Positions 1,212 through 10,088 of a DNA stretch of 32,077 nucleotides are shown here, in pieces. This stretch comes from an uncultured Clostridia bacterium (GTDB taxonomy: Bacteria; Bacillota; Clostridia; Christensenellales; CAG-138): positions 1 through 32,077 of the forward strand of contig CAMVGD010000019.1 in assembly GCA_947166925.1 (NCBI GenBank). Reading direction: 5' to 3'. The position numbers and the translations under genes are program-made. Each line of letters begins with the position of its first letter. Position 1 is the stretch's first letter. The notes beneath the pieces were generated by a model that was not told the origin of the DNA, searched no databases, and saw only the letters and a program-made list of their open reading frames with translations.

Positions 1212-1307
1212 ATGAATTGCGCAAGCGCATGAATTGTGCTTTGCACATGAATTGTCCAAAGGACGTGAATCGTGCCTTACGGCACATGAATTGACGACAA
1301 AGTCGTC
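1212..1307. repeat. Mini-hairpin array, ATGAATTG linkers
   Basis: ATGAATTG at 1212, 1229, 1247, 1286 (GTGAATCG at 1265) separated by GCGC-AA-GCGC, GTGC-TTT-GCAC, GTCC-AAA-GGAC, GTGCC-TTAC-GGCAC, then GACGAC-AAA-GTCGTC. Confidence 0.85.
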
Positions 1308-1318
1308 GTGGAGGGAAT

Positions 1319-2053
1319 ATGCAAAAACCGGTGATCGGCGTAACGCCGCTGTTCGATCGGGCGCGGGATTCCTATTGGATGCTGCCCGGGTATTTTCTTG
1401 CATTGGAGCAGGCGGGCGCGGTACCCGTGATGCTGCCGTTGACGAACGACGAGACGGCGCTTTCCCGCCTTGTCGGGACCCTCGACGGCTTTCTGATCGC
1501 GGGCGGGCAGGACGTTTCGCCATCCGTTTACGGCGAGGAACAAAAGCCGACCTGCGCGGAGACCTGCCCCGAGCGCGACGCGATGGAGACCGTGCTATTG
1601 CGGCTGCTGTGGGACGCGGACAAGCCGGTGTTCGGCATCTGCCGCGGGCTGCAGATCCTGAACGCGCACCTCGGCGGTACGCTTTTTCAAGATTTGAAAA
1701 CCGAGCATCCGTCGGACACGAACCACCGCATGGCGGCGCCGTACGACCGCGCCGAGCACACGGTTGCTTTGTGCAAGGACGCGCCGCTTTGTGCGCTTTT
1801 GAACGCGGAGGAGATCGGCGTCAACAGCTGCCACCATCAGGCGATCAAGACGCTTGCGCCGGCTTTGCAGCCCATGGCGATCGCGCCGGACGGGCTCGTC
1901 GAGGCGGTCTGTGCGCCGGAGAAACGCTTCATCTGGGCGGTGCAGTGGCATCCGGAATTCTTCTTCCGGAAGGATGAAAACAGTCGGAAGCTTTTCTCGG
2001 CGTTTGCGGACGCGGCAAAACCCGGCAGAACAGGAGCTTCGTATGGACGATAA
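1319..2053 (+). CDS. Gamma-glutamyl-gamma-aminobutyrate hydrolase family (class I glutamine amidotransferase-like, peptidase C26)
   Basis: GICRGLQILN nucleophile elbow, LDGFLIAGGQDVSPSVYGEE, AVQWHPEFF. Confidence 0.9.
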   Translation: MQKPVIGVTPLFDRARDSYWMLPGYFLALEQAGAVPVMLPLTNDETALSRLVGTLDGFLIAGGQDVSPSVYGEEQKPTCAETCPERDAMETVLLRLLWDADKPVFGICRGLQILNAHLGGTLFQDLKTEHPSDTNHRMAAPYDRAEHTVALCKDAPLCALLNAEEIGVNSCHHQAIKTLAPALQPMAIAPDGLVEAVCAPEKRFIWAVQWHPEFFFRKDENSRKLFSAFADAAKPGRTGASYGR

Positions 2054-9428: not shown

Positions 9429-9430
9429 GA

Positions 9431-9492
9431 GTGATATCCGCCTGCGGCGGGTGATATCGCCCTTTGGGCGGCGATATCTTCCCTGCGGGAAG
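9431..9492. repeat. Mini-hairpin array, TGATATC linkers, 20-nt period
   Basis: GTGATATC at 9431 and 9451, GCGATATC at 9471; stems CCGCC-TGC-GGCGG, CGCCC-TTT-GGGCG, CTTCCC-TGC-GGGAAG. Confidence 0.85.
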
Positions 9493-9531
9493 GTTCATGA
9501 GAATTCTCCTCCGAGAATCGTCTGATTTTAT

Positions 9532-9623
9532 GCGGCCTTGCCGCAATTCACGTCCGGAGGACAATTCACGGCGCAGCCAATTCATGTTCCGAAGGAACAA
9601 TTCATGCGCGAAGCGCAATTCAT
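9532..9623. repeat. Mini-hairpin array, CAATTCA(C/T) linkers (same linker family as 1212-1307, opposite orientation)
   Basis: Linkers at 9544, 9562, 9578, 9598, 9616; stems GCGGC-CTT-GCCGC, GTCC-GGA-GGAC, GGC-GCA-GCC, GTTCC-GAA-GGAAC, GCGC-GAA-GCGC. Confidence 0.85.
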
Positions 9624-9639
9624 CGACAACCCTTCCGTC

Positions 9640-9800
9640 AGCTTGACGGCTGCCACCATCCTTTACACAGGGAGGGCGAAGCACCAAAAGCCTTCCCCCT
9701 TGGGTGGGGGCGCGGAGCCGAGCGCTCGCTGTGCGAGAACAACCCCTCAGTCACCTATCGGTGACAGCTTCCCTTACACAGGGGAGCCAAGAACTGAGGC
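9640..9800. repeat. Two adjacent copies of a dispersed CCCCTCAGTCACC...GGTGACAGCTTCCC-type repeat
   Basis: CCTTCCGTCAGCTTGACGGCTGCC...ACACAGGGAGG and CCCCTCAGTCACCTATCGGTGACAGCTTCCCTTACACAGGGGAGCC; homologous to reverse complement of 13415-13483. Confidence 0.7.
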
Positions 9801-9855: not shown

Positions 9856-10088
9856 GCGCAGCGGAATGGAACAGGGAGAAAACCACACAGTGCGTGGTTT
9901 TCGACCATGTGAGGCCATCCAGGCGGCGAGGCTTGCCGAGCCGGATGAGGGGGATTATCACGCACGCCGCAGGCATATCGGGCTGAAGGCATATTAAATA
10001 TATTTTTGATTCATGGAACTTTTTACCTGCATTGCGCGTCTTGCGTTATGGAATGATCATTCAGAGCAATGAGTTGGGAGAAAAACCG

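Follow-up and report, generated by a model that had tools for sequence, protein, structure and literature searches.

What kind of element is the chain of five small hairpins, here called array B, that occupies positions 1213–1307 on the forward strand of the 32,077-nucleotide stretch of Clostridia DNA analysed in this study (the window)? From the letters alone it had been read as an array of complementary stems that vary freely between constant linkers, belonging to no named family, and generated either by selection on structure or by a palindrome-copying mechanism. Below we dissect the array, follow its relatives through the genus and beyond, and weigh a DNA reading of it against its rivals.

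Anatomy of array B and its neighbours in the window

Read along the forward strand, array B is a row of five mini-hairpins with (A/G)TGAATT between them, a linker that is constant but for one TGAATC copy: TGAATT-GCGCAAGCGC-A-TGAATT-GTGCTTTGCAC-A-TGAATT-GTCCAAAGGAC-G-TGAATC-GTGCCTTACGGCAC-A-TGAATT-GACGACAAAGTCGTC. In order, and all on the forward strand, the hairpins are GCGCAAGCGC (1219–1228; arms GCGC/GCGC), GTGC-TTT-GCAC (1236–1246), GTCC-AAA-GGAC (1254–1264), GTGCC-TTAC-GGCAC (1272–1285; its opposite-strand loop, GTAA, being of the cGNNAg type) and GACGAC-AAA-GTCGTC (1293–1307); the first, drawn as GCGC-AA-GCGC, would actually fold as GCG(CAAG)CGC. All five spacers are palindromic, in agreement with the sequence-only reading. 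That reading gave the linker as ‘ATGAATTG’: its constancy stands for four copies, the remaining one being a GTGAATC that had been overlooked, and the final G belongs to the stem, such that the linker proper is the 7-nt RTGAATT. As TGAATT or TGAATC precedes each palindrome, and the joints are single purines, the repeating unit can be described as RTGAATT plus a hairpin with G as its first letter and C as its last.

The fifth hairpin runs right up to GTGGAGG, the ribosome-binding site of the gene that follows, placing the array immediately upstream of the translation signal of a Peptidase_C26 / class-I glutamine amidotransferase (1319–2053, forward strand; Pfam PF07722, E 1.9e-61). Array B itself beats shuffled sequences only moderately in folding (z −2.3 and −3.1 as DNA, −2.4 and −3.4 as RNA), and just one loop of its five conforms to the GNNA rule described below. 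Two familiar candidates could be set aside: an intrinsic terminator, defined as a G+C-rich hairpin followed by a T run, with no T run seen after any unit; and a CRISPR array, defined by direct repeats of at least 20 nt and spacers that are unrelated and non-palindromic, the repeat here being 7–8 nt in length and the spacers palindromic.

Array B is accompanied by several other repeats. A second RTGAATT array (hairpins GCGC, GTTCC, GGC, GTCC and GCGGC) is found on the reverse strand at 9532–9616, and adjoining it, at 9429–9499 on the forward strand, an array with the linker RTGATAT and the hairpins CCGCC-TGC-GGCGG, CGCCC-TTT-GGGCG and CTTCCC-TGC-GGGAAG, which resembles the Gut-1 motif (40.9 bits to Rfam RF01706; gathering threshold 50). 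On the reverse strand, at 295–384, degenerate units of the RTGAATT type are interspersed with a GTAGGGG palindrome. A separate, genus-wide repeat of ~45 bp (GATGGTACGCGCGGGAAGCGCGCGATCTGCC...) occurs at 1142–1194 of the window, at G003:C40, G010:C122 and many other congener loci, and also near some RAYT-like genes, along with GTAGGGG palindromes; whilst a third dispersed palindrome family (AAAAGCCTTCCCC...GGGGAAGG...CGGATGAGG), present at 9690–9712 and 9880–9950 of the window as well as at many other loci, often supplies the immediate neighbours of RTGAATT arrays.

Abundance, pairing and the compound form

All statistics were computed on retrieved genome stretches. The genome to which the window belongs, a 2.53 Mb draft in 145 contigs, contains 207 exact pairs of the form TGAATTG-N6-18-TGAATTG (100 forward and 107 reverse), as against none for the reversed-pattern control, and the same kind of search across congeners, as the sequence-only reading had proposed, yields between 0 and 177 adjacent linker pairs per genome. 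Counted by variant, the linkers are ATGAATT (361), GTGAATT (125) and ATGAATC (22). The stems vary, the 108 hairpin units of the window's own genome having 21 different 5′ arms between them, and are nonetheless paired: perfect stems are seen in 52 of its 67 distinct units, compared with 17.4 (maximum 25) when 3′ arms are swapped among units of equal length, and in 144 of the 227 units of the wide set, compared with 23.6 (maximum 35) after the same re-dealing. When an unbiased census, which accepts three different hairpins joined by any identical linker of 5–9 nt, is run on 2.4 Mb of the genus, AATTCAY dominates among the linkers; the census finds no triplets in locally shuffled DNA, nor in 517 kb of non-carrier bacteria that merely match the linker pattern. 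The original impression, that the stem changes and complementarity is kept, was thus correct, with the genus-wide signal far stronger than that of array B alone. The architecture of the arrays is real, abundant and structurally constrained. A chance or compositional artefact has next to no probability; the isolated pairs seen in other taxa are plain tandem repeats without hairpins, as such an account would have it, but the reversed-pattern, shuffled and non-carrier controls all stand at zero.

Constraint is also apparent between species. In orthologous units, substitutions fall at 2 of 386 stem sites and 10 of 147 loop sites, with flanks ~89% identical; the alignment takes near-identical units only, and so measures constraint in retained units rather than wholesale replacement, which also occurs. 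Neighbouring arrays are, for the most part, inverted with respect to each other (51 in (+)(−) and 13 in (−)(+) arrangement, versus 7 in the same direction), and many prove to be halves of a compound element, in which three to four hairpins, a centre, and a further three to four hairpins with the inverted linker follow one another. In G000 and G006 this element is ~290 bp long, often flanked by terminator-like hairpins and positioned just past stop codons. Across 14 copies, 13 of the drawn base pairs change on both sides with pairing kept; cells are paired in 97.3% of cases, compared with 89.1% when shuffled and 34–50% when slid, and one-sided intermediates are nearly absent from the mini-hairpin stems. 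Adjacent units share a stem in 0 cases in the genus set, where 14.8 would be expected, and in 4 in the wide set, where 6.1 would be; as the effect is weak in the wide set, despite the strong genus signal, we do not treat neighbour avoidance as a main argument.

These patterns bear directly upon a passive account, in which the arrays are functionless repeats, template switching copies one arm to the other (quasipalindrome correction), and slippage between the 7-nt linkers deletes units. The scarcity of one-sided intermediates would fit with this, as would the tandem block amplification seen at G013:C61 and the lack of shared stems between neighbours in the genus set, as if identical neighbours had been deleted. 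We nevertheless judge it improbable: avoidance between neighbours is only weak in the wide set, changes are rarer in stems than in loops, and neither the strand-specific loops with their C-G closure (see below) nor the constant linkers common to several families, with ordered types such as GCC-GAAATC-GAGCC, find an explanation in it. Of the two mechanisms put forward in the sequence-only reading, selection on structure is therefore the one we favour; pure copying of palindromes sits poorly with loops that are strand-asymmetric and with orthologous changes that fall in loops, not stems.

Distribution, strand and the nature of the folded molecule

In a class-wide sample of Clostridia, 23 of 391 genomes match a three-linker pattern, a few of them by chance tandem repeats only. 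Array carriers outside the genus are uncultured gut and rumen Clostridia of many families, in which the arrays mostly come as facing pairs; members of many families share a recurring ordered type, GCC-GAAATC-GAGCC facing GACAAC-GGC-GTTGC; copies in this wide set may be old and immobile. Pattern matches outside the Clostridia are without hairpins, except for one bin labelled Synergistes that contains real units. A phage origin was considered and rejected, true arrays being present on only a few IMG/VR contigs, which are plausibly bacterial fragments.

At the array B locus itself, G013 carries an identical array, G007 and G010 carry arrays in the same position whose stems differ, G011 and G012 have a single unit, and four congeners have a plain terminator and ribosome-binding site with no array. 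A similar picture holds across loci, where the site is often empty though both flanks align, and at others the stems differ; no target-site duplication, clean empty site or exact insertion site was recognised among the loci compared. The intergenic region containing array B (1094–1318) is 97% identical between G000 and G013 (C97), with flanking genes 73–81% identical, which suggests that the region was either transferred recently or is strongly constrained. Elsewhere in G013 (C61, 6096–6276), a block of three hairpins (GCGC, GTCC and GGC) has been tandemly amplified, indicating that arrays can grow by blocks. The arrays are essentially always intergenic, with an approximately 3-fold enrichment between convergent genes: such gaps are 12% of the total, yet hold 26 of the 75 arrays that were classified.

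The loops have a clear polarity. Read on the linker strand, triloops of the form TNC outnumber GNA by 71 to 6, and tetraloops of the form TNNC outnumber GNNA by 52 to 2; the closing pair is C-G in 242 of 302 hairpins, whereas such a loop with C-G closure is found in 108 of 2665 background triloop hairpins. It follows that the CAATTCAY strand is the one to bear c(GNA)g and c(GNNA)g loops, and this strand specificity is new here. Seated on at least two G-C pairs, loops of this kind make extraordinarily stable, nuclease-resistant DNA mini-hairpins (PMC4686876). Taken from the loop list, the GNNA loops split into ~29 GNRA and 21 GNYA, and the RNA GNRA rule is thus not followed; among single-mismatch units there are 13 G·T and 17 A·C, hence the wobble preference looked for as a sign of RNA is absent, a test that is weak when taken alone as arrays occur on both strands of genes. 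Together, the mismatches, the strand-specific loops and the non-GNRA loops favour a DNA structure over an RNA one.

Copy number, patchy presence, conservation of structure, strand-specific loops, inverted pairing and the existence of several linker classes are demonstrated by these data. Our preferred reading, which we hold tentatively and at somewhat less than even confidence, is that array B belongs, as one copy among many, to a non-autonomous mobile element which is scattered between the genes of Clostridia and read as folded single-stranded DNA; the single-stranded stage, the enzyme and mobility as such are what we infer. The element would be a chain of three to eight mini-hairpins with a fixed 7-nt linker, its full form consisting of two chains that face each other. 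Upon exposure of the CAATTCAY strand, each unit would snap shut as a hairpin with a loop of the c(GNA)g or c(GNNA)g type, and the linkers would stay single-stranded, forming sequence tags at regular intervals; an enzyme acting in trans would then recognise the linker sequence in combination with the shape of the hairpins, and would mobilise the chains or rearrange them. Were only the linker and the hairpin shape to be read, the letters of the stem would be free to drift for as long as they pair. No mobilising enzyme was found, the Y1_Tnp domain being no commoner in carriers than in non-carriers across 35 genomes.

Some of the data pull in another direction. The failure to recognise any target-site duplication or clean empty site, and the single rule-abiding loop among the five of array B, both weigh against our preferred reading. 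Near co-directional genes the arrays lean towards the sense strand (26:12), and they lean towards the G-rich strand (30:13); both would also be predicted by an RNA role, and count against the DNA element. The same is true of a perfect, promoter-like TATAAT that, in 9 of the 22 compound elements from distant families (loci L459–L476), closely precedes the first hairpin on its 5′ side and fits a role as RNA or untranslated region. A structured RNA element is, accordingly, a reading to which we attach an appreciable though lesser probability: either a non-coding RNA similar to Gut-1, itself catalogued as such (PMC2864571), or hairpins in untranslated regions, which would stabilise mRNA or terminate transcription and whose unpaired UGAAUU linkers would serve as sites for a protein or RNase. 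The position of array B, immediately 5′ of a ribosome-binding site, and the terminator-like hairpins that bound some compound elements are in keeping with this. It is harder to reconcile with arrays in both orientations, with G-U pairs that show no excess over A-C, and with loops that conform to the GNA/GNNA rule of DNA rather than the GNRA rule of RNA, and do so on the complement of the strand annotated as RNA; moreover, transcription starting ~6–7 nt past the TATAAT would probably leave the 5′ arm of the first hairpin partly missing from the RNA. As a separate observation, the motif GCATCTAAAYCKT...TATAATG recurs both before and after the distant compound elements (L459–L476).

Comparison with known systems

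Repetitive extragenic palindromes provide an obvious point of comparison. REPINs and REP/BIME elements with their RAYT (PMC3116915) are likewise short, high-copy, intergenic palindromes, with inverted doublets, patchy copy number and a proposed single-strand folding. In REPs, however, it is the sequence of the palindrome that is conserved, whereas the present arrays keep the linker and leave the palindrome free: inverted doublets are present (51 + 13 versus 7), but with 21 distinct 5′ arms in 108 units there is no conserved palindrome bearing a GTAG/GGAG-type tetranucleotide, and no RAYT (Y1_Tnp) that is consistently present and adjacent. That the arrays are REP/BIME-type elements moved by a RAYT, a Y1 transposase, with TGAATT standing in for the GTAG tetranucleotide, thus appears very unlikely to us. 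RAYT-like genes do exist in seven array-bearing congeners, one of them near a TGAATT array (L355), and the inverted pairing of arrays resembles that of REPINs (PMC3116915); yet the RAYT-like genes examined within the genus have GTAGGGG palindromes beside them and not, as a rule, TGAATT arrays. Y1_Tnp (PF01797) is found in 14 of 18 carriers and 12 of 17 non-carriers, which amounts to no association across the 35 genomes, and was undetected in G075, a carrier with 25 pairs whose genome is rated 100% complete. Neither gene neighbourhoods nor presence across these genomes lends support to Y1/RAYT as the mobilising enzyme and, unlike for REPs, no requirement for a RAYT was found for the arrays.

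The repetitive, double-hairpin elements of mitochondria (PMC2800124) offer a second likeness, being mobile-looking hairpins that are missing from close relatives and vary mainly by loop substitution; their stems are, in contrast, conserved within a genome, they have no constant linker, and strand-specific GNA loops are not described for them. Mini-hairpins of the d(GCGAAGC) type (PMC4686876) share with the CAATTCAY strand of the arrays their C-G closed GNA/GNNA loops. They are known as a physical motif used in aptamers. We know of no genome-wide repeat family built from them; if the DNA reading is true, the arrays would be a case in which nature employs the hyperstable DNA mini-hairpin throughout a genome, and in which selfish DNA keeps its identity in a new way, through shape and not sequence.

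The closest relative, however, is Gut-1 RNA (Rfam RF01706), catalogued as a non-coding RNA and as ‘Human gut only’ (Weinberg et al. 2010, PMC2864571), which qualifies the earlier statement that no named family could be recognised. The Rfam comparison suggested at that stage gives nothing at the gathering threshold, for either the window or the compound elements; a permissive search (cmscan), on the other hand, aligns the arrays to RF01706 hairpin for hairpin with linkers in register, at 14.8 bits for array B, 25.4 bits for the L468 array (from another family) and ~30–36 bits for other RTGAATT arrays that are recognised, all of them below the gathering threshold of 50. True Gut-1 matches, in excess of 50 bits, are found in RTGAATT-carrying genomes; Gut-1 matches occur in 18 of 20 carriers as against 3 of 20 non-carriers, and show the same (+)(−) inverted pairing. 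Judged by these scores, the RTGAATT arrays are a sister class of Gut-1 and not members of it. We found no description of TGAATTG arrays in the open-access literature.

At least seven further linkers join similar arrays in the carriers, TCGATAT, AGCTAAAT, GCGATAT, GTGAAGT and ACATCGTT among them; arrays with these, RTGAAAT and CATCAT linkers were noted at L141, L125, L477, L459, L471, L146, L038, L473, L094 and L248. It is possible, and we suggest it with some reserve, that Gut-1 and its sister arrays (RTGAATT, RTGATAT, TCGATAT, AGCTAAAT, GCGATAT, GTGAAGT and ACATCGTT) form a single undescribed class of bacterial mobile DNA, whose machinery would read a constant linker and the shape of hyperstable single-stranded DNA hairpins whilst leaving the stems free; the filing of Gut-1 among non-coding RNAs would then be an error. 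In any case, an orphan ‘RNA’ motif that has been on record since 2010 is now tied to a large repeat superfamily of gut and rumen bacteria, and the RNA status of Gut-1 itself comes into question. With rules that can be measured (the linker is constant, stems vary but pair, one strand bears GNA/GNNA loops closed by C-G, and arrays are paired in inverted orientation), what Gut-1 is becomes a testable matter.

The likeness between the two is close: three successive mini-hairpins are chained by one short linker that stays constant, loops are of the C-UUC-G and C-UUGC-G kinds, and the two have in common both the bacteria that carry them and the inverted pairing. They differ in the linker, which is (G)UGAAAU in Gut-1 (GUGAAAU in full) and RUGAAUU here (as DNA, ATGAATT 361, GTGAATT 125 and ATGAATC 22); in length, the arrays having up to eight hairpins and the Gut-1 consensus three; and in the manner of their occurrence, Gut-1 having been described as an RNA of the human gut only, and the arrays being a multi-copy, dispersed element of many gut and rumen Clostridia.
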